From: Verrucomicrobiales bacterium
GTDB taxonomy: Bacteria; Verrucomicrobiota; Verrucomicrobiia; Limisphaerales; UBA11320
Direction: 5' to 3'
DNA length: 64,000 nt
Assembly (NCBI GenBank): GCA_016793885.1
Contig: JAEUHE010000178.1
Location: forward strand, 1-64,000
The notes beneath the pieces were generated by a model. The model was given only the letters and a program-made list of their open reading frames with translations. It was not told the origin of the DNA and did no database searches. The position numbers and the translations under genes were made by a program. Shown piece after piece: positions 44,374-57,627 of the stretch (position 1 is the first letter of the stretch; every line of letters begins with the position of its first letter).

Positions 44374-44506
44374 CGTGTCGCGATAGCGCGATAGTCAGCC
44401 AGGGACTTAGGAGCGACGACCGGTCCTGATCGCGATGGGCATAGAGGGCTCTCGGCCTGTAGGAGACGAGGACAAGAGACCAACCGCTCATCTAGCCTAA
44501 ATCCGG

Positions 44507-44618
44507 GAATGGATTAACCACGGATTTCACGGATGACACGGATCCGGAAAGACTTGGATGAAGGACCCTCACCACTCCTTCTTTATCCGAGTCATCCGAG
44601 AAATCCGTGGTTTCCATC
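44507..44618. repeat. Palindromic element with ATGGATTAACC termini, copy 2
   Basis: This second member of the family at 358-514 is 112 bases here. The left arm is GAATGGATTAACCACGG; the right arm, ATCCGTGGTTTCCATC, carries mismatches. The internal 'GGATGACACGGATCCG' and 'AAAGACTTGGA' are shared with the minus-strand reading of copy 1. Confidence 0.75.
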
Positions 44619-44625
44619 AACCTTT

Positions 44626-44996
44626 TTAGGTTCAGCCGCAAGAAACGAAAGACGGCGAAAAATGGGCGAACCCAGGAACTCACTCTCCCTACCTCCATCT
44701 GCTTCTTTCGTCTTTTTTCGTTCTTTGCGGCTAATGCGGCAGTTCCGGCGAACGGGTCCCCGCCGTCTCGGGCAGCAGAACTCTTCGTGGCTTTGTGGCT
44801 TCGTGTGAAAAATTCTTAGGTTCAGCCGCAAGAAACGAAAGACGGCGAAAAATGGGCGAACCCAGGAACTCACTCACCTTACCTCCATCTGCTTCTTTCG
44901 TCTCTTTTCGTTCTTGGCGGCTAATGCGGCAGTCCCCGCGAACATGGCCCCGCCGTGTCGGGCAGCAGAACTTTTCGTGGCTTCGCGTGAAAAAAT
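44626..44996. repeat. 190-bp tandem direct duplication
   Basis: Two adjacent copies start with TTAGGTTCAGCCGCAAGAAA at 44626 and at 44816, giving a 190-base unit. The copies differ at scattered positions and by small gaps. The whole is flanked by a further direct repeat (GATCGCGATGGG...TCGGCCTGTAGGAGACGAG) at about 44428-44470 and 45017-45060. No convincing gene lies in the 749-base gap between the cyclase and the GT4 gene. Confidence 0.85.
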
Positions 44997-45122
44997 CGAA
45001 GGGTTACGGAGGGATGGATCGCGATGGGGAAATAGGGCTATCGGCCTGTAGGAGACGAGATAACAAGAACCCCAATCCGCGGCTATCACCGCAATCGGCT
45101 GCTGCGACCTTCTAAGTCGCAA

Positions 45123-46304
45123 TCAGAGCCGCGTCGAACTCGTCTCAGTTATATCGACGCCGCTCACGTGACTGACGATCTCAAGCCAGCTTGGAATCAC
45201 CGCATCCCATGTCAGGGTCTCGGCGAACCTACGTCCGGAAACCCCGTACTCCGAGCGGAGCTGCGGATTCAGGTAGAGTTTCTCGATACATCGCGCCAGA
45301 TCGTCGACATCCACAACCGCTTGATCAAGCACACTGGGTCCCAGCGTCAACGTGGTCAGGACACGTGCGAGCTCTCCATGCCCGTGGATGAGTTCGGTGC
45401 ACGCGCTGCAATTCGTCGCTACCACCGGCGTCCCGGCCGCCAAGCTCTCGATGATCGGCAACCCAAAGCCCTCACCCATGGTAGGCAGCACGCTGATATC
45501 GAAAAGGTTGTAGAGCTGGTTGAGTGCGACATCTGGTAACGGTTGCTCGATCGTCAGATCGGGCCGCGAAAGATCCGCTCGCCCCTGCAGGCCATAGCGC
45601 TTGAACAGAGTTACGAGATCGTGTCCCTCGTCAGACGCAGTGCAATGAAGGTAAAGATGGATGTCCTTAAAGCACCGCGCTAAAAGTGAAAATGCTTTAA
45701 TGAGGCTAGGCAGGTTCTTGCGCATCTGATTGCGAGCCACGCACCCGACGATAAACTTACCGCGAAAGCGCTCATGATTTCTCAACAGAGACCGATCCGG
45801 AAGCGGACGAAAAACCGTGGTATCAACTCCGTGATAGGAGACCTGCACCGGTTTGGAAGGAACTCCCAGCTCAATGACTCGACGACCGAACCGCGACATC
45901 GCCACAATCCCATCCATGTCCGCAAAAATCGGCTGCCACGGAGGATAGAAAGGTCCGCTGTCGAGGGGGATGTAACCTATCCACTTGAAGGTCGGACGAG
46001 CCTCATGCATTCGAATCCAGTGAATCGAGCGCACCTCGCCTAGAGTAATCACGACATCCGGTGCGAACTGCCGAATCACGTCACCAAATGAGGCTTGTCC
46101 ATAATACTCAGGAACCGAAGGAAAAACCCGAAACGGCCATTGGTGCGGGTTGCCGGCCCTCTCACAAGCACCCCATCCCTTTACGACCAACTGCATTCCC
46201 GGATGACGGCAAAGACGAGACACCACCTCGCGCGTAACCCGGCCGAATCCGCTGGCGAGCCAAGGATTGTCACTCATCCACAACACCTTAAGTCGCCGTC
46301 TCAT
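45123..46304 (-). CDS. GT4-family glycosyltransferase
   Basis: 393 residues with the GT-B fold expected of family GT4. The N-terminal half has RRLKVLWMSDNPWLASGFGR (acceptor-domain glycine loop). The C-terminal half has VGCVARNQMRKNLPSLIKAF and the nucleotide-sugar signature GEGFGLPIIESLAAGTPVVA with the conserved Glu residues seven apart. No membrane segment or signal peptide is seen, so it is cytoplasmic. It is the last gene of the seven-gene unit; its ATG overlaps the TPR gene stop by four bases (ATGA). A role in glycosylating a product of this operon is inferred. Confidence 0.9.
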   Translation of the reverse strand: MRRRLKVLWMSDNPWLASGFGRVTREVVSRLCRHPGMQLVVKGWGACERAGNPHQWPFRVFPSVPEYYGQASFGDVIRQFAPDVVITLGEVRSIHWIRMHEARPTFKWIGYIPLDSGPFYPPWQPIFADMDGIVAMSRFGRRVIELGVPSKPVQVSYHGVDTTVFRPLPDRSLLRNHERFRGKFIVGCVARNQMRKNLPSLIKAFSLLARCFKDIHLYLHCTASDEGHDLVTLFKRYGLQGRADLSRPDLTIEQPLPDVALNQLYNLFDISVLPTMGEGFGLPIIESLAAGTPVVATNCSACTELIHGHGELARVLTTLTLGPSVLDQAVVDVDDLARCIEKLYLNPQLRSEYGVSGRRFAETLTWDAVIPSWLEIVSHVSGVDITETSSTRL

Positions 46305-46984
46305 TCAGCCTGGCGCTCCCACCATCCGGGGCAGAGGCTTCTGAGGAAGCCTCCACTGACCGAGCCGCCTAAGGGCAATGTGAGGAGAATTCCTTGAACA
46401 CCGGAGAGGGCCTCAAGACGCGTTCGGCAATCTGCGGGGAGCTGAGGATGCTCAAGTAACCGAAGGGCAATGAGGGTAGCCTCGGCCTCCCGGCCAAGAG
46501 CCTGACAGGCGTACACGAACTCGAGAGGCAGAATGAGTTCGTAAATAGATAGATCGAAACCAAACCCTTTCGACGGCACAACTGCACCGATGCCTAGCTT
46601 GGAAAGTTGGTAGGCGGTCTCGTGCGCACCGTTCTCGCGATAGATGCGTGCCAGAGGGGCCAGAGGCTCTAGCCGTGAGGGCAGAAAATCGTAGGCTCGG
46701 GCGTACGCCTGGATAATAGCTTCAGGCGTAGCACCCTGAGTGAAATGTGTCAAAACCGCGACCTGATAGAGACAGTACCACGTCTCCTCCTTGGCTCCTG
46801 ACAGCTCGGCCCGTCGGGAATACCACTTCTTAGCATCAGCTAATAGTCCCCGGGCGAAGCAAGCCTCCGCCAGTCGGAACAAGAGTGTCGCATTCTCCGG
46901 CGCTTTCTCGGCCGCAAGGGCAAGCTCGAGAATTTCAGCGGCTTCATCGGGCGAATTACCCAGGCCCAGTGCTTTCACTCCCAT
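46301..46984 (-). CDS. TPR-repeat protein
   Basis: 227 residues, almost entirely helical, with tetratricopeptide-like repeats (ENATLLFRLAEACFARGLLADAKKWY is the clearest, by pattern W/L-G/A-Y-A-P). No signal peptide or membrane segment. Its start overlaps the glycine-rich gene by ten bases and its stop overlaps the GT4 gene by four, so the three are translationally coupled. TPR proteins fused or coupled to glycosyltransferases often recruit protein acceptors, which is a reasonable guess here. Confidence 0.7.
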   Translation of the reverse strand: MGVKALGLGNSPDEAAEILELALAAEKAPENATLLFRLAEACFARGLLADAKKWYSRRAELSGAKEETWYCLYQVAVLTHFTQGATPEAIIQAYARAYDFLPSRLEPLAPLARIYRENGAHETAYQLSKLGIGAVVPSKGFGFDLSIYELILPLEFVYACQALGREAEATLIALRLLEHPQLPADCRTRLEALSGVQGILLTLPLGGSVSGGFLRSLCPGWWERQAE

Positions 46985-47934
46985 TGCTTGAAGCTAGCAT
47001 TGTAACGAAGAATGGTACCGGGGCTCCCATCAACCGCCTCGGCTCCTCCTGTGTTTGGCGTCCCCAAACCACCTTTGGTTCCTCCGCTCACAAGGAACGG
47101 AGTCGCGACCGCGGATGAGAACCAGCTGTACACCGCATAGATGACACCTCCACCGCCTCCTCCACCGCCGGCACCACCTTTGCCTGTTCCCACGGACACA
47201 CTTCCACCCGCTCCACCATCCCCACCCATCGCCCGAATTTGTCCGCCGGTCAGCAACTGAAGACGTTGAGCGAAGATCATGATCACCCTCCCCCCACCAC
47301 CACCTCCTCCAGCGGCAACGTTTCCGGGAGCCCCGAGGCCAGATCCTCCTCCTCCGGCACCGGCACCGCCGGTCAAGGGAGTTCCCAGAGAGAACAAAGA
47401 CGGGCTCAAGGATCGAAACGGCCTGGCGGTGGCGACGCCAGGGCTTCCGCTAGTGCCCCCCGGGCCTCCACCAGTTCCACCTGCGCCACCCCCTGCGGTG
47501 CTACTCATCGATGTTACATTGCCACCGGGGGATCCGGAAACTCCCGCTCCAGCCGAGCCAGTGCCACCAGCTCCGCCTGCCCCAGAGCTACCCAAATCAC
47601 CGGCGGGAGCGGCAAGCCCTCCGCTTCCGCTCGTCCCACCTGAACCTCCGCCCACTCCGTTTCCACCGTTATTTGAGACGAAAGTCGCAATAGAAAGCGT
47701 TCCGGTGCAGAAGATGCGAAATCCCGCCGTGTTCAACGCGCCGGCTCCAGTCAGCGTGAGGTTGCGGGCGAAGACGGAACGGGTCAGGGTGTAAGGGCCC
47801 ATGCCACTCACCCAAGTCGGCCCAGTGCCCGTATTCAACGTCACATCTCCATCCGAACCATCGCCGAACATCCCAGGTTCCAATGGCGCGGCGATCAGAT
47901 CCGTCACAATGCCGGAAGAGTTGATTAATTTCAT
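46975..47934 (-). CDS. Glycine-rich tail-fibre-like structural protein
   Basis: 319 residues. The N-terminal 90 residues have the pattern FGDGSDGDVTLNTG...LTLTGAGALNTAGFRIFCTG, a style seen in glycine-rich phage tail-fibre or adhesin proteins. Residues about 90-270 are a glycine/serine/alanine-rich repeat region, interrupted by GGGRVIMIFAQRLQLLTGGQ. The C-terminus (TILRYNASFKQWE) is more ordinary. No signal peptide. Its ATG shares one base with the preceding gene's TAA (TAATG). A fibrous or surface structural role is inferred from composition and context only. Confidence 0.7.
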   Translation of the reverse strand: MKLINSSGIVTDLIAAPLEPGMFGDGSDGDVTLNTGTGPTWVSGMGPYTLTRSVFARNLTLTGAGALNTAGFRIFCTGTLSIATFVSNNGGNGVGGGSGGTSGSGGLAAPAGDLGSSGAGGAGGTGSAGAGVSGSPGGNVTSMSSTAGGGAGGTGGGPGGTSGSPGVATARPFRSLSPSLFSLGTPLTGGAGAGGGGSGLGAPGNVAAGGGGGGGRVIMIFAQRLQLLTGGQIRAMGGDGGAGGSVSVGTGKGGAGGGGGGGGVIYAVYSWFSSAVATPFLVSGGTKGGLGTPNTGGAEAVDGSPGTILRYNASFKQWE

Positions 47935-48341
47935 TATTGATCCCTTTCGGCTCCATTGACGACGCAGTCGATCCCGGTGGCCACGCCGGTCCCTCCGGCG
48001 AATTCGAAGATTAGATAGTCTGTGCCTGCGGTCGCATCTCCGCTCATCACAACCTCGGTGTCGAGCACGATCTGTTGATTCGCCGGCACCCGCAGGTCGG
48101 GTGGCGCAATTCTGAAGAAAAGAGTGTTCGTGCCGGTAACATCTCCGATGGCGGGCGCACTCGTCTTTCTACCCACATAGATGCCCTTGATCGTACCATC
48201 CGTCGCAGAGTAGTTGGTGAGCACGATCGATTTTAGAAGCGCTGCCTTGGCAGTGGCCACGCTGTATGGGTTGGCTGCTAGTGCTGGCCCGGCTGCTGAA
48301 GCAATTTTAGCCCTATAGAGAGGTTTGAGTATTAATGCCAT
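47934..48341 (-). CDS. Small virion-like beta protein
   Basis: 135 residues with no signal peptide. The order 'LLKSIVLTNYSATDGTIKGIYVG...FFRIAPPDLRVPANQQIVLDTEVVMSGD' recalls small phage structural proteins in which 'LTN' and 'LP(A/P)N...VLDTE' landmarks delimit a beta-sandwich. This is pattern recall, not a database match. It is followed by the glycine-rich gene with a one-base overlap and preceded by a 109-base gap after the 542-residue beta-helix gene. Confidence 0.65.
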   Translation of the reverse strand: MALILKPLYRAKIASAAGPALAANPYSVATAKAALLKSIVLTNYSATDGTIKGIYVGRKTSAPAIGDVTGTNTLFFRIAPPDLRVPANQQIVLDTEVVMSGDATAGTDYLIFEFAGGTGVATGIDCVVNGAERDQ

Positions 48342-48450
48342 GTGTGTCCTTCGCCCTGGTTTTCGTCCGTGTTTGGTTTGTGCTACTGCAGTGTACTCAG
48401 CCTAAACGCCTTTCCAGCGCCGGAGTTAAGCACACCTAAATGCATATCGA

Positions 48451-50079
48451 TCACTGTTCCCAGTATGCCATCACAAAGGCATCCTCCGTGAGGGTCGCCA
48501 GTTCATCGTACTTTTTCGCTGTCTCTGCGTTGTAACCTTGGACCAATAGGCCCAGAGGAGTGAGGTCATTGAAGTAGGTAGCCGCGCCACACCGGGAATT
48601 CCTCAAGGGATTCGCGGGGGCGCAGTCTACTACATTATTCTGGACCTGAAGATTCTTCGCTCCTCGCACATCGCTGCAAAAGCCCAGATTCGTGGACTTA
48701 AACACTCCGTCCACATACCGAACCTTATTGTTACGGAAAATGATGTCCCCATGGGCGTAATCAGGGCGCTCGACGTAAGGAGTTCCGCCCCCGTTGTTGT
48801 CATCAACCTGAAAAGCCACACCAACCAAGGAAACACTGGGGGCCACTTCGATGGTGTTACCTTCCACGGTGGCCCTTCCAACACTGAGCAACTTCTTCAC
48901 GGAGGTGATCGTCGTCGCAGGCGGACTCGCCACCTTGGTCACAATCTCGAAAGTGGTCGCAGTTACATTCTGGATGGCGTACACGCCCGTGACACTCGCT
49001 TGGTTCGTCGCTAAAGCGACTCGATCACCAGCCCCAAGATAGGCCATTCCTCCGGTGTTTAGTCCGTTCACGGTACCAACGGATCCCACCCAGCTTATCG
49101 TTGGAGTTCCGGTCAATGCGGAGGAGGCCTGCCCCAGGTCGAAGAAAGGCCCGCAGGCGACGTTTTTGAAGAAGTTGTTTCGCACGATGATGTCGCGAAC
49201 GCTGCGCTGATCTTGAAATGGACCGGCGATGTCCGTGTTATAAACTTGGTTACCCTCAACGACTCCCCCTCGACACCATCCCATCGCGAGCCCTCGAAAT
49301 TTCGCGGTCGCTGGATCCGGGTCGGGCGTGGTTACGCCGCAATCCACATAACAGTTCCGAATAAATGGACTCTTGGCATGCAATTCCTTGGGAAAGCCGA
49401 TGTTGTCGTGGCCTCCGACATTGATGATGGTGACTTTTCCTCCCGCGACTATCGTTCCGGGGGTGATCGCGTAACAATCTTCAATCCCTGTGTTAACAGC
49501 TTCCAGAGCGTTCGGAGTCGCGTTGGGGATCGCTGTGATCAGGGAAAACACATAGCACTGCTTGGTGGAATCACGGGTTCCCCAGTTGGTAGCGCGTACC
49601 CGACGGATCCGAGCGTGGCTTCCCATGATGCGAATAGCTCCATAGGCAGACGTCGCGGCAATGTTCGATCCACAATCGATTTCCAAGTCTGAAATCTCAA
49701 ATGCATCCACCGGTGCCACCGCCAGATTTGCCGTGGCCAGATCATGCCCCACCACAAAATACTGCACCCCGTTCTGCGTAACCCCGCTCAACTGAAGCTT
49801 CGTGACCGCTACCCCTGAGCCCAAGATTTTCATCCCCGGCTTCGCTTGCCATCCTCCAGCGACTCCATCCGCATAGCCTTTGGTGGTGAAGACCCCCGGC
49901 CCCAGCCGAATCATGAGATTCGCGGTGGCGGCGAATTGGTTCATGATCCCATCGAATTTTCCCGCCCCACCGTCAAACGGATCGTTCGCGGTTCCTGAAC
50001 CTTTCTGACGGTCTGCTCTATCAGCTATCCATATTTGAAAAGGGGCCGGATCGAGAAGAAGCGCATCAAGCAGAGACAT
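48451..50079 (-). CDS. Beta-helix protein without signal peptide (paralogue A)
   Basis: 542 residues, likely a right-handed parallel beta-helix of the pectate-lyase/tailspike type. It begins MSLLDALLLD and has KGSGTANDPFDG near 26-37, a motif that in such proteins precedes the helix. It shares with the 811-residue neighbour a series of landmarks: ILGSG (86-90), ISDLEIDCG (129-137), GSHARIRRVRATNWGT (153-168) and RNCYVDC (241-247). A single 'GDRVAL...GVYAIQNVTATTFEI' module interrupts the helix near 345-385. The start codon overlaps the 3' end of the PEP-CTERM gene by 14 bases. No catalytic residues could be assigned. Confidence 0.75.
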   Translation of the reverse strand: MSLLDALLLDPAPFQIWIADRADRQKGSGTANDPFDGGAGKFDGIMNQFAATANLMIRLGPGVFTTKGYADGVAGGWQAKPGMKILGSGVAVTKLQLSGVTQNGVQYFVVGHDLATANLAVAPVDAFEISDLEIDCGSNIAATSAYGAIRIMGSHARIRRVRATNWGTRDSTKQCYVFSLITAIPNATPNALEAVNTGIEDCYAITPGTIVAGGKVTIINVGGHDNIGFPKELHAKSPFIRNCYVDCGVTTPDPDPATAKFRGLAMGWCRGGVVEGNQVYNTDIAGPFQDQRSVRDIIVRNNFFKNVACGPFFDLGQASSALTGTPTISWVGSVGTVNGLNTGGMAYLGAGDRVALATNQASVTGVYAIQNVTATTFEIVTKVASPPATTITSVKKLLSVGRATVEGNTIEVAPSVSLVGVAFQVDDNNGGGTPYVERPDYAHGDIIFRNNKVRYVDGVFKSTNLGFCSDVRGAKNLQVQNNVVDCAPANPLRNSRCGAATYFNDLTPLGLLVQGYNAETAKKYDELATLTEDAFVMAYWEQ

Positions 50080-50845
50080 TTTTCGTGTGTTCTTGGTTTC
50101 GTTTCGAACGTCGGAACAACCACGCGAGCGACCCGCTCGCGAGAAGGAACAGAGGGACGGAAGAAGGCTCAGGGATCGAATGGTAGTGGAAAAGAGTTAC
50201 AAACCCTTTCGTGCTGACCACTCCGCTAGTCGGGATCTCGCCGGTTTCACTGAATCCGCTCACCGTCGCGACGGAGTCCCCTAATACATTTTCCGCGTCC
50301 ATTGAGGAGGTTTGGATGCCTTGGAAACAGGTAATATCAACGAGCAGGTTCCCTTTCGAGGGATCATAGAAGAATGGTCTCGCATAGAACGTCAGACTAG
50401 TACCAAAGCTTCCGGGCTCCTGGCCAGACGGCCGCGATGTATAGAAGGACACCTTATCAGTTTTATCGACTCCTATCGTTCGATCCCGTCCCACGTTCAG
50501 CTCGAACGAACTGCTCAAGCTATCCACAGCCACACTCGTGATCGAAAGCTCGATCTGAATCCCAGTGCCGTTGTAGCTGGTGTTCCTCCCGAACCGTTCA
50601 TCAGCCCGAAACGCGATCTCATCGATCCAAACCCCGCCCTTGGGAAGGAACGAGAAGTACGAGGCGTCGTAGATCTGTTGAACACGGCCGGTAAACCCAT
50701 CAGGCACGAAGACTGTTCCGTCGTCATTCCCGTGGCGTGTCCGCAGTTCTTCATTCGGAGATACCGCTACTTCAGACCGCTCAAGCGCTCCGACCGAGCT
50801 GACAAAGGAAAGTGTGATCAGAGTAGATAAAAAAACGAATTGCAT
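50066..50845 (-). CDS. PEP-CTERM sorting-domain protein
   Basis: 259 residues. An N-terminal signal peptide (MQFVFLSTLITLSFVSSVGA) precedes a beta-rich body of about 190 residues, probably a choice-of-anchor-type domain. The C-terminus has the full exosortase-type sorting signal: PEPSSVPLF, a hydrophobic helix, then RRSKR. The family of the body is unknown. It is the only protein of the seven-gene unit with a recognisable export route, lying between the two beta-helix genes with an 11-base gap upstream and a 14-base overlap downstream. Processing would require an exosortase encoded elsewhere. Confidence 0.85.
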   Translation of the reverse strand: MQFVFLSTLITLSFVSSVGALERSEVAVSPNEELRTRHGNDDGTVFVPDGFTGRVQQIYDASYFSFLPKGGVWIDEIAFRADERFGRNTSYNGTGIQIELSITSVAVDSLSSSFELNVGRDRTIGVDKTDKVSFYTSRPSGQEPGSFGTSLTFYARPFFYDPSKGNLLVDITCFQGIQTSSMDAENVLGDSVATVSGFSETGEIPTSGVVSTKGFVTLFHYHSIPEPSSVPLFLLASGSLAWLFRRSKRNQEHTKNVSA

Positions 50846-50856
50846 AGGATCGATTG

Positions 50857-53292
50857 TTAAAAAAGCGCCATCATTACTACGTCCTCGATTTGGGAACTCA
50901 ACTCATCAACGCGTTTCGGGGGCACTAACGGTGTGACATCCGTCTCCGGGACAAGAACTCCGCTCATGCGCTGGTTGTTAAAAGAAAAAACATTTATCGA
51001 GTTGAGATGTTCCAGAGGGGTAGGCGATTCCACATCTACCAGGTTTTCTTGGACCAAAAGGCCGTTTACTCCCTTAACCCGAGTTCCTTTGGAGACGTCG
51101 CTCGTAGATACTTTCCCATCGACATGCCGAATCAGGTTTTCGCGAATGATCCATTGATTGAAAAGAAACGGAGCAACTACTAGCTCACCGTCGCCGAGCG
51201 CCCCGCGAGGAAAGATCCCCGAATTCAGATCGACAGAATACAAATCAAACTGGTTACGCTCGATCACCAGACGACGGGTATCCCAACGACCAGAAAACTC
51301 TATGGGATCGGTGCCGCTCGGAGGATCAGCAGGCCCGCCTGGATTGGCGGTCATCCGATAACGGAATTTCGTATTCGAGGGAACATCCTCCACTAGGAAA
51401 TTGCCGTTATAAGGATTGTTGGTAGGCGGAACAGCACTGGTCCTTGCTCCTTGGACAAAGACGATATTTCCGATGGAAAGGTTATGTGTAGTTCCAGCCG
51501 CTACTGTAAATTCAGCTAGGAAGGGATCCCCACTTACCTGGACGATGCCGCTAGCTTTGGCCAACGTGTCTTGCCCACCCACCCCAAAGTTCATCCAAAC
51601 GCCATACTGACAGTCCGAGTAATAGCCATCTCGAACCAAGGTGTCCCGACTCACCCCGGTATCGTTGTAGATCGGAATGGTGCAATCAAACGCGCTGTTC
51701 GATTCGACCGTTGATCCCGTTCCCCCGATGGCTTCCGGACTGTGATAGTCCACGCCAAGAGTCTTGGTGTTGCCAAACCCCGGAGTTGGAAAAGGAGATG
51801 GTGGGAAGACCATTTTGCAAGTGACTTTGATATCACTGACCCTGAGCACCACGCGAAACGAGGAGTTGTAGGGATGCGACTTCGTGGGATCGGTGGGGTT
51901 ACTGACACCCGAGATCACTACATTATCCCCCGCCACGCGGTTGTGAGGGCTTTTCGTCGTGACGTCGAAGAGTCCCGAGGCGTTTGGGGGTGTCGTGATC
52001 GCCGTGATTTCCACTCGCTGGGTTGAGAATCCCGTCGGATAGCGACAATCCGCATAGCACCGGCGAACCACCGCGCCGTTCCCAGTGCTTTTCAACGAGC
52101 TGGATGGAGCGTTCTCAATCGGGCTGGCGATCATCAGCGTCGATTCGTGGAACGGATTGCTGCCTGGCTTCTCCACCATACAATCCGAGATAACCAAGTT
52201 CTTGCTGACGTCACTCCACCCATGGAGCGCCATCACGAAACACTCCGGGAAAGACTGAGTGCCGAACCGTGTCGCACGAATCCTGCGCAGTCGGTTGTGA
52301 CTCCCCCTCAATGGGCCCGTCGCACCCGTGGTGACCGGCGCAAAGTAGCCTTCGTAAGGGATGGGCTGATCGGGAAGATTGCAGTCCACGCTGAAATCGG
52401 ACGCGCTAAAGCCTAGCAGCTCTTTGAAGCTGCCGAGCGCGGTCGTCATCGTAATCTGGTCGACCGCCATCTCGAGTTTTACCGAAGTGGTTTCGATGCC
52501 TGAGCCTAGGATCGTTTGGCCCGACTTTACCGAGCATCCGACGTAGAGTTTATCCGTATCGCTCGGATCGGAAACATAGACCGAACAGAGACCACGCGTA
52601 CGGATAGGATTATTGGGAGCGGCAACACCCAGCTGAATCAGGCTGTTCGCTGGCACGCGGGTCAACGCAGCGTCGAATCGGTGCTGCAGCCTTGCGAAGG
52701 TCATGGAACTCCCCGCTGCAGCTATCGGTTTGCCAGGGAGCAGGTAATGAAACGCATTGGAGCTGATACCGAGAGCCACGAAAGAACCATTGTAGGCAGC
52801 ATCTGCGGCCCCGGTCACGCTCACCGCGTCGAACTCCACCAGACCGTGAGCCGCAGCCGTTGCGGCCGCAACCGGCCAGAAAAGCCGAACCACGATCGGT
52901 GAGGTTGGAAAGCCACTGGTTCTCTCAGATCTAAACGAGCACAAGCCGGACGCAGGAGCCGTTGGATCTGCCGCCAGGAGAAAGGAAAACGCGCGGGCAG
53001 AGATTTTTGTGATCGAGAAGGAAGCCGTGTAAGGACCTGCACTGGGTCCTCTTTCCAAGGTAATGAGAACGGTCTCGCCGCTATTGTAGGGGTGATCGGA
53101 ACCCGTGATAGCGATCACCAATTTAACGTCAAAAGACAATCCCGAAAGCGGCTGAGTTAAACCCGCAACTACACTTGAATCCCAGGGGTCAGAGAGTGTA
53201 CCCGAACCGAAAAGGTGATCCGACCGGGCCGCCACATATCGATCCTTCGGGTCCGAATACTCGTCCAACAGCAATGCGTCGAAGAGAGACAT
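50857..53292 (-). CDS. Beta-helix protein without signal peptide (paralogue B)
   Basis: 811 residues. MSLFDALLLD and FGSGTLSDPWDS (28-39) mirror paralogue A. Further parallels are ILGSGIETT (261-269), ASDFSVDCN (297-305), GSHNRLRRIRATRFGT (330-345) and RRCYADC (410-416). The extra length comes from inserted modules of about 45-55 residues with the pattern 'H..GD.V.I.GA...YNG.F.V..V....F.Y', clear near 148-195, 450-500 and 602-660, and weaker near 58-116. Similar modules occur in phage tail proteins. No signal peptide. It is the first gene of the unit; a promoter should lie in 53293-53500. Confidence 0.75.
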   Translation of the reverse strand: MSLFDALLLDEYSDPKDRYVAARSDHLFGSGTLSDPWDSSVVAGLTQPLSGLSFDVKLVIAITGSDHPYNSGETVLITLERGPSAGPYTASFSITKISARAFSFLLAADPTAPASGLCSFRSERTSGFPTSPIVVRLFWPVAAATAAAHGLVEFDAVSVTGAADAAYNGSFVALGISSNAFHYLLPGKPIAAAGSSMTFARLQHRFDAALTRVPANSLIQLGVAAPNNPIRTRGLCSVYVSDPSDTDKLYVGCSVKSGQTILGSGIETTSVKLEMAVDQITMTTALGSFKELLGFSASDFSVDCNLPDQPIPYEGYFAPVTTGATGPLRGSHNRLRRIRATRFGTQSFPECFVMALHGWSDVSKNLVISDCMVEKPGSNPFHESTLMIASPIENAPSSSLKSTGNGAVVRRCYADCRYPTGFSTQRVEITAITTPPNASGLFDVTTKSPHNRVAGDNVVISGVSNPTDPTKSHPYNSSFRVVLRVSDIKVTCKMVFPPSPFPTPGFGNTKTLGVDYHSPEAIGGTGSTVESNSAFDCTIPIYNDTGVSRDTLVRDGYYSDCQYGVWMNFGVGGQDTLAKASGIVQVSGDPFLAEFTVAAGTTHNLSIGNIVFVQGARTSAVPPTNNPYNGNFLVEDVPSNTKFRYRMTANPGGPADPPSGTDPIEFSGRWDTRRLVIERNQFDLYSVDLNSGIFPRGALGDGELVVAPFLFNQWIIRENLIRHVDGKVSTSDVSKGTRVKGVNGLLVQENLVDVESPTPLEHLNSINVFSFNNQRMSGVLVPETDVTPLVPPKRVDELSSQIEDVVMMALF

Positions 53293-53887
53293 GAAGGTGC
53301 GTGCGTGGAGGTTAGAGGTTCATCCGGGCACAACTTGGGTTGAAGGATGAAGAGGAACCAAATTCCATCGTTGAGACGGACTTTGGGCACAACATAGGAA
53401 CGAGGAAGTTAGACGAACGAGCCGACGAGCCGACGAGCCGACTCAGACGACCTGATCGCAATCGACATTGGGTTGTAGCTCCTCATGGGTTCTCTGCCCT
53501 TCTTGGCGTGGCTTGTTGTGAAGGCAATATCCTCCGAACTTATCCAGAGTCAACTGGGAATTTGCAAATTTCTATTTTTGTGTTCGTCGGCGGTCGGGCA
53601 TTTGAACCGACCCCTTGCCCTTCGCAGGAACGCCCCGAGGTGTGGCCCACGGAGCACACAGATCACACGGAGGGGACCAGCGAAGGCAGTGATGAGTGGT
53701 AGTGAGTGACGAGTGATGAGTTGGAGTTGCCGAAGGGGACTCGTCCGGGGACGGACGATGGTACAAGGGGATGGCGGGGGCGATTACGATTACGGCAGGG
53801 TACGGGAACACGCGAGCGCTCCCAGGCTTCCTCGTCACTCGTCACTCGTCACTCGTCACTCGTCACTCATCACTCATCACTCATCAC
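53293..53887. other. Repeat-bearing gap upstream of the seven-gene unit
   Basis: 595 bases without a supported gene. It contains tandem GACGAGCC-like units at about 53417-53441, TGAGTGA-type units on the opposite sense at about 53688-53722, a short GATTAC pair near 53784-53796 and the heptamer array at 53831-53890. The promoter of the operon is expected near the 53300 end. Confidence 0.6.
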
Positions 53888-53890
53888 TCA
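53831..53890. repeat. Heptamer array, five CTCGTCA and three CTCATCA units
   Basis: Eight uninterrupted 7-base units run into the stop codon of the pseudouridine synthase gene. The change from CTCGTCA to CTCATCA occurs once, consistent with amplification after a point change. Related CACTCRTCA sequences occur at about 37338-37372. Confidence 0.9.
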
Positions 53891-57048: not shown

Positions 57049-57627
57049 ATGAAAACCATCGTCTTTTCCATCGCCATGGCATCCGGGCTCATGGCCGCGC
57101 AGGCAGAAGTCCTGTCCTATACAGCCTATCTCGACGGTCCAAGCGAACCCAACAGCGCCTCGCTGGGAACGGGCAGTGCCACCGCGGTGTATGACACCGT
57201 CGCTCGCACCTTAAAGCTCGACGTAAGCTTCACCGGACTCACTGGCAACACGACCGCCGCGCACATTCACGGGCCGACGGCGGAAGCGCAGGCCGGCACT
57301 GCCGGCGTCATCACCCAAACTCCGTCCTTCAGCGGCTTCCCTCTGGGCGTCACCAGCGGCACCTATTCTGCCACGTTCGACCTGACGGCCGCAGCCAGCT
57401 GGAACGCTGCCTACATCAACAACAACGGTGGCACCCCAGGGACTGCTGAAGCAGCTTTCGCCACGGCGCTGGCTGCCGGCAAGACCTATCTGAACATCCA
57501 TTCGAGCGTCTACGGAGGCGGAGAAATCCGGGGATTTCTGCTTCCGGTTCCCGAGCCTTCCAGCCTCGCGCTGGCGGCCCTGGGCTCTCTAGGGCTCATC
57601 GCTGGGCTGCGCCGACAGAAGCGCTAA
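57049..57627 (+). CDS. CHRD-domain PEP-CTERM protein
   Basis: 192 residues. A signal peptide (MKTIVFSIAMASGLMAAQAE) precedes a CHRD (chordin-like) domain at about 22-165, with the landmarks AHIHGPTAEAQAG and the closing YLNIHSSVYGGGEIRGFL. A PEP-CTERM signal follows (VPEPSSLALAALGSLGLIAG, then RRQKR). It is probably exported, cleaved by an exosortase and surface-attached. CHRD domains in bacteria are of unknown binding function. Confidence 0.93.
   Translation: MKTIVFSIAMASGLMAAQAEVLSYTAYLDGPSEPNSASLGTGSATAVYDTVARTLKLDVSFTGLTGNTTAAHIHGPTAEAQAGTAGVITQTPSFSGFPLGVTSGTYSATFDLTAAASWNAAYINNNGGTPGTAEAAFATALAAGKTYLNIHSSVYGGGEIRGFLLPVPEPSSLALAALGSLGLIAGLRRQKR

Follow-up and report, generated by a model that had tools for sequence, protein, structure and literature searches.

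The 64-kb stretch of DNA analysed here (hereafter the window) comprises positions 1 to 64,000 of contig JAEUHE010000178.1 of Verrucomicrobiales bacterium (assembly GCA_016793885.1), and contains an operon of seven genes, all on the minus strand, that represents a chromosomal cassette conserved, in multiple copies, in Limisphaerales (Verrucomicrobiota). Two of these genes encode long proteins of beta-helix type, bhB (50857..53292, 811 aa), with FCCH-like inserts, and bhA (48451..50079, 542 aa), predicted to form a right-handed beta-helix. Between them lies the gene of a 259-aa secreted protein (50066..50845) with a signal-like N-terminal segment, recognised by eye, and a C-terminal PEP-CTERM motif. 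Then come a small protein of predicted jelly-roll fold (47934..48341, 135 aa, ending in GAERDQ), a glycine-rich protein (46975..47934, 319 aa) in which the alignment reveals an N-terminal GDGSDG..TLTRS module, a TPR protein (46301..46984, 227 aa, ending in PGWWERQAE; PF14559 above cut-off), and a retaining glycosyltransferase of the GT4 family (45123..46304, 393 aa; PF13692 and PF00534 above cut-off). The coordinates and the junctions of +11, -14, +109, -1, -10 and -4 bases given in a preliminary description of this DNA were all confirmed for the open reading frames (ORFs). The region is also lower in GC, as had been noted: nine 1-kb bins from 45 to 54 kb range between 0.516 and 0.625, with a mean of ~0.56 versus ~0.60 for the whole window.

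Further copies are found in the window's own genome (G000, a draft of 8.7 Mb in 274 contigs), where a search with bhA retrieved contigs C233, C154, C249 and C149 as well as a fragment on C152. C233 and C249 display the full gene order without the glycine-rich gene; C154 holds the genes from bhA to GT4 and C149 those of bhB and the secreted protein, and since both stop at contig ends they may represent one or two further copies. Four copies in this genome bear the GT4 gene. Beyond it, bhA matches were obtained in four congeners (G001-G004, those of G001 being weak beta-helix relatives only) and in two genomes of other families (G012 and G018). Overall, copies ranging from partial to complete exist in the four congeners and in several further families of the order. 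In the gene order common to the copies, bhB is followed by a signal-peptide protein and bhA, then by small jelly-roll proteins (one or two), in some copies by one or two that are glycine-rich, and finally by a protein with a GWWE-type tail and GT4; because this order recurs within the host genome, in congeners and in other families, the operon is far beyond chance, and the genes are indeed kept together as a dedicated operon. The earlier picture of a seven-gene operon has to be relaxed, as the order is conserved but the glycine-rich gene is optional and often replaced by a second small jelly-roll gene; locus L042, for example, encodes GT4 and two small proteins besides bhA and the secreted protein. 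In the near-complete operon of G012 a different gene takes the place of the operon-type GT4: the 339-aa protein encoded after the TPR gene (L033:7877-8896), where GT4 is expected, may be another glycosyltransferase. Four orphan or truncated ORFs that open with a MSLxDALLLDP-type motif (L032:7833-8243, L041:7697-7987, L034:79-357 and L026:7626-8207) are apparently remnants of further copies.

The GT4 profile retrieved exactly four genes from the host genome at E < 1e-10 and the small-protein profile seven at E < 0.01, all within these operons. The proposal of a dedicated glycosyltransferase is thereby strengthened, the GT4 subfamily being confined in this genome to the operons. At E < 1e-30 the GT4 occurs in 6 of 313 genomes of the order, five of which are operon carriers; in the sixth (G107, E 7e-35) the searches made found no other operon genes. 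Among 388 phylum-wide genomes, the small protein was found in G000, plus one weak match in G546, and bhA gave, outside G000, partial matches in two genomes only. Two bhA peptide patterns run against 84,980 species genomes hit five loci, a lower bound since such a scan needs near-exact peptide matches; four carry the labels of metagenome-assembled genomes (MAGs), either of Verrucomicrobiota (one of them Limisphaerales) or, in the case of two loci from a single assembly, of Akkermansia. One carrier record is that of a groundwater MAG.

Between loci L010 and L011, nonsynonymous (dN) and synonymous (dS) divergence amount to 0.08 and 1.13 for GT4, and to 0.19 and 2.47 for the small protein, while bhA has a dN of 0.33 with saturated dS; bhB has a dN of 0.29 and a dS of 2.45 between L033 and L034. 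The resulting dN/dS of ~0.07-0.12 in the measurable pairs corresponds to purifying selection, and the measured genes are therefore maintained. Within one and the same pair, the dN of bhA is much above that of GT4, as expected of a part that determines specificity. In the trees of both GT4 and bhB the window copy joins the G004 copies, apart from the paralogues of its own genome (support 97/97 and 100/100, respectively), and two subtypes therefore coexist in both genomes.

The two beta-helix-type proteins have similar termini, which the alignments summarise as MSLxDALLLDP for the N-terminal and ELxTxIEDALxLAL for the C-terminal end. On the minus strand of the window these are represented by MSLFDALLLDE (53260..53292) and ELSSQIEDVVMMALF (50860..50904) in bhB, and by MSLLDALLLDP (50047..50079, (nearly) invariant in the bhA alignment) and ELATLTEDAFVMAYWEQ (48454..48504, a predicted helix) in bhA. 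No signal peptide was seen on bhA or bhB when judged by eye. A single-chain AlphaFold2 model of bhA displays a beta-helix flanked on either side by a short helix (pLDDT 61, pTM 0.68), and its nearest solved folds, at Z 26-29, are the Vibrio polysaccharide lyase RbmB, the epimerases AlgE4 and AlgE6, the pneumococcal adhesin PfbA and phage tailspikes. As these Z scores lie close together, the fold alone cannot choose between lyase, epimerase, adhesin and tailspike; the modelled bhA has the right-handed beta-helix body that characterises tailspikes, with Z 26-28 to those of Det7 and Sf6, but lyases have it as well and it is not specific. Searched against PDB sequences, the profiles of bhA and of the small protein returned nothing significant. 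Two members of the bhA family match a pre-neck appendage PHROG, and the inserts of bhB match PHROG tail fibre and virion families. The window bhB is 27-38% identical to the bhB of other copies, and FCCH (PF16190) was detected in two of ten bhB homologues; of the beta-helix and FCCH modules described earlier, the former is thus supported by the bhA model and the latter by these two homologues, but not by the window bhB itself.

Sequence resembling insertion sequences (IS) was seen by eye at contig ends at or near the junction of the secreted-protein and bhA genes (L010 end, L012 start, L024 end, L025 end, L028 start and L029 start). The end of L010 carries an IS3-type ORF start, and contigs of G004 end in a shared element, with bhA split between L024 and L025. 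Such recurrent insertion at bhA could point to selection against this gene, for instance as a phage receptor.

The small protein is modelled as a jelly-roll with reasonable confidence (pLDDT 80), and proteins annotated as virion structural components are among its fold matches in viruses; turret and cement proteins appear in the PDB fold search, headed by the Haloferax tailed virus 1 turret (Z 9.3). Relatives of the family by sequence occur in phages of Bordetella, Streptomyces and Pontimonas, where their genes belong to tail regions, and in a Pseudomonas phage, where the gene lies in the region of the structural genes; the window's own small protein had no match in the phage records. In two viral contigs (L139 and L143) a small gene is directly followed by glycine-rich genes, and G546 encodes a tail-like protein, a small-type protein and a glycine-rich protein in a row. 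The phage-tail-like character claimed for these modules is thus upheld by the matches of the small and glycine-rich proteins to phage tail-region genes and by the small-then-glycine-rich order of the viral contigs. Genes of tryptophan-halogenase type and of 2OG-Fe(II) oxygenase type also lie near the small and glycine-rich genes of L139 and L143 (tested on L143).

The secreted protein of the window matches PEP-CTERM (PF07589) with 22.6 bits against a cut-off of 20.7, and its homologues sit between bhB and bhA in other copies. Nine aligned homologues keep a common body; three of them carry PEP-CTERM and the rest end in a different C-terminal extension. The exosortase-anchored component proposed for the operon therefore stands for the window protein, but as a feature of one subtype. 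A second PEP-CTERM protein, bearing a CHRD domain, is encoded in the window at 57049-57627.

The GT4 enzymes have an E-x7-E motif (EGFGLPIIE), both glutamates of which are invariant in the alignment, and they form a cluster of their own, separate from the sampled phage GT4s (90/97 support). Immediately before GT4, each of the eight loci that bear it has a gene whose product ends in a WW-containing tail (PGWWE, EPGWWEG, EAGWWEG, WGWWE or PPWWEE). The tail belongs to the TPR protein in two of them, the window, where it is C-terminal and its coding stretch (46304..46330, minus strand) directly overlaps the GT4 start, and L025, and to a shorter ORF in the other six. Since it precedes GT4 in every case, the GWWE-tailed protein is likely the functional partner of GT4. 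Of the TPR/GT4 pair recognised earlier, both domain calls hold (PF14559 and GT4); the constant element is nevertheless the short C-terminal tail and not the TPR.

The flanking proteins of the window operon and of the copies on C233, C154, C249 and in G012 are cellular. Among 19 flanking proteins of five loci (window, L009, L010, L011 and L033), Pfam searches found no head, portal, terminase or integrase genes; the neighbours include a GGDEF response regulator, a pseudouridine synthase, an EngB-like GTPase, NADH-quinone oxidoreductase subunits and Hsp70, and are hardly shared between copies. The finding that would have marked the operon as a decayed prophage, phage head, portal or terminase genes, was thus not made in the scanned flanks, and as the copies moreover lie among unrelated housekeeping genes, such an origin appears unlikely. 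Orthologues of the flanking GGDEF gene were found in G004 and G001 away from any cassette, but as the wider gene order was not conserved either, this comparison revealed no clean empty site.

The gene-poor flanks of the window operon carry repeats on both sides, in agreement with the preliminary description: the left one (44374-45122) holds a 171/190-nt direct repeat and a 37-nt hairpin, and the right one a tandem array of the 7-bp unit CTCGTCA (53831-53889). An intergenic repeat, CACGGATNNCACGGAT (window 44516-44612; also C154:51906 and C149:4292 of G000), occurs at 29 places in the 8.7-Mb genome, and three occurrences lie within ~0.65 kb of these operons, a proximity that may reflect an intergenic bias or a part in operon movement. 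No tRNA was found in the 64-kb window; promoter matches were no more numerous than in shuffled sequences, and terminator matches were fewer.

We tentatively propose, at somewhat less than an even chance, that the operon encodes a domesticated fibre of tail-tip type, which would bind or process polysaccharide, be held or received by the secreted protein of the envelope, and carry sugars added by its own GT4. The common terminal motifs of the leaderless, tailspike-like bhA and bhB would dock both onto one partner, with the small jelly-roll and glycine-rich proteins, both of phage-tail type, as putative connectors in the assembly. The secreted protein, with PEP-CTERM in some copies, would hold or receive the exported structure at the cell envelope and so display it, while GT4, together with its likely GWWE-tailed partner, would glycosylate one of the operon products. 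The faces of the beta-helices would bind or process a polysaccharide ligand, and several diverged copies would supply a repertoire of specificities. It is possible, if rather doubtful, that this amounts to an undescribed class of cell-encoded extracellular devices of Limisphaerales, that is, a virion-tail-derived glycosylated fibre without tube, sheath or capsid, held at the envelope by the co-encoded secreted protein, with the diverged copies as a repertoire of polysaccharide-recognising tips. We found no description of such an operon in the literature searched, whose coverage omits most subscription journals.

Several observations weigh against the fibre. The confidence of the bhA model is modest (pLDDT 61), and the fold of bhA and bhB is equally that of cellular lyases and epimerases. 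Profile searches of viral contigs and searches of phage records revealed no sequence relatives of either protein, and the small proteins are only weakly homologous to those of phages (≤38% identity). PEP-CTERM is not general, being absent from six of the nine homologues, and no export route was apparent for the leaderless proteins. The carriers are all draft genomes, in which contig ends truncate many copies, and some copies are degraded.

Leaderless tail-type parts with a shared N-terminal motif would also fit docking onto a particle encoded elsewhere, and the operons might then be spare receptor-binding cassettes for an unlinked extracellular contractile injection system (eCIS), gene transfer agent (GTA) or tailocin, assembled onto it in the cytoplasm. 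The GTA of R. capsulatus is reported to employ a detachable tailspike (PMC13420450). The host genome has, on contig C225, a gene for a 527-aa contractile-sheath-like protein (L179:1153-2736) that stays below the PF04984 cut-off and matches sheath-like genes of G003, G004, G017 and G018; a gene of this kind is present in four of nine clear carriers (G000, G003, G004 and G018) versus one of 15 other genomes, with a probability of ~0.05 in a hypergeometric count made by hand and ignoring kinship. Yet no sheath match was found in carriers G012 (96% complete), G149 (92%), G001, G002 and G115 (80-86%), a protein with a signal peptide would be out of place in such a particle, and neither the operon nor the scanned flanking proteins include sheath, tube or baseplate genes. 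A contractile particle is thus not required, given the lack of a sheath match in G012, and on the same ground we rejected an obligate role of the operon as eCIS cargo or fibre. We regard this explanation as unlikely, though by no means negligible.

Unlikely to a similar degree is that the operon processes polysaccharide, with bhA and bhB acting as lyases or C5-epimerases on the cell's own or a foreign polymer, GT4 making or capping it, and the likeness to phage proteins reflecting fold convergence or shared modules. The top fold matches of bhA, RbmB and AlgE4/AlgE6, would suit this role. GT4 enzymes often act in exopolysaccharide synthesis, and the operon GT4 has weak NCBIfam similarity to exopolysaccharide glycosyltransferases. 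Against it, no signal peptides are visible on bhA and bhB; the small jelly-roll and glycine-rich partners have no known role in such pathways, and no further polysaccharide-synthesis genes were found in the operon or the scanned flanking proteins.

A fibre or pilus built of the small jelly-roll proteins with beta-helix tips, in principle like Bacillus endospore appendages (Ena), seems improbable: Ena subunits do appear in the PDB fold search of the small protein (7a02, Z 8.1, root-mean-square deviation 3.0 over 101 residues) and each operon has one or two small paralogues, but a Z of ~8, which many jelly-rolls share, lies within the background for common folds, viral jelly-rolls match equally well or better, and the PDB sequence search found no match to Ena. 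Equally improbable is a decaying prophage or selfish mobile relic without cellular function, to which the orphan fragments (L032, L041, L026 and L034), the IS-like contig ends at or near bhA and the hardly shared flanks might point, and against which speak the dN/dS of the measured pairs, the order conserved across families and the scanned flanks, in which neither phage nor integrase genes were found.

Returning to the domesticated fibre, its parts can be compared with several known systems. Phage tailspikes (Det7, Sf6 and phi29 gp12) resemble bhA in their right-handed beta-helix bodies of divergent sequence (Z 25-28); the operon differs in being chromosomal, with no adjoining phage genes or viral sequence relatives found, and in that the fold is common to lyases and epimerases. 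Small phage tail-region jelly-rolls (phrog_1276; phiPsal1 gp021, which according to its record note matches a virion protein of Pelagibacter phage HTVC010P), all-beta proteins of ~110 aa, resemble the small protein, and the small-then-glycine-rich order recurs in L139 and L143, but here each operon has one or two such genes, with a beta-helix gene on one side and a GT4 gene on the other. Phage GT4s (phrog_2170; S-CBS4, phiPsal1 and contigs L047-L051) are 24-38% identical to the operon GT4 and, in phiPsal1 and S-CBS4, encoded near structural genes, whereas the operon GT4s group apart and are encoded directly after a GWWE-tailed protein. As GT4, its likely partner and its likely targets stand in one operon, the latter would offer, if the device is real, a compact test case for the targets of virion-associated GT4s. 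The window copy resembles PEP-CTERM/exosortase surface proteins in its motif above the curated cut-off, unlike the six of nine homologues that lack it. The detachable tailspike TspA of the R. capsulatus GTA is reported to serve a phage-derived element in acting on biofilm polysaccharide (PMC13420450); here, no particle is linked to the operons.

If the proposed fibre is real, it would be a novel means by which environmental bacteria deal with surface polysaccharides. The devices in which cells are known to employ parts of phage tails (tailocins, contractile injection systems and GTAs) retain, to our knowledge, a tube or capsid, whereas here only tip- or fibre-like parts appear to have been kept, several times over, together with a secreted protein and a dedicated glycosyltransferase.

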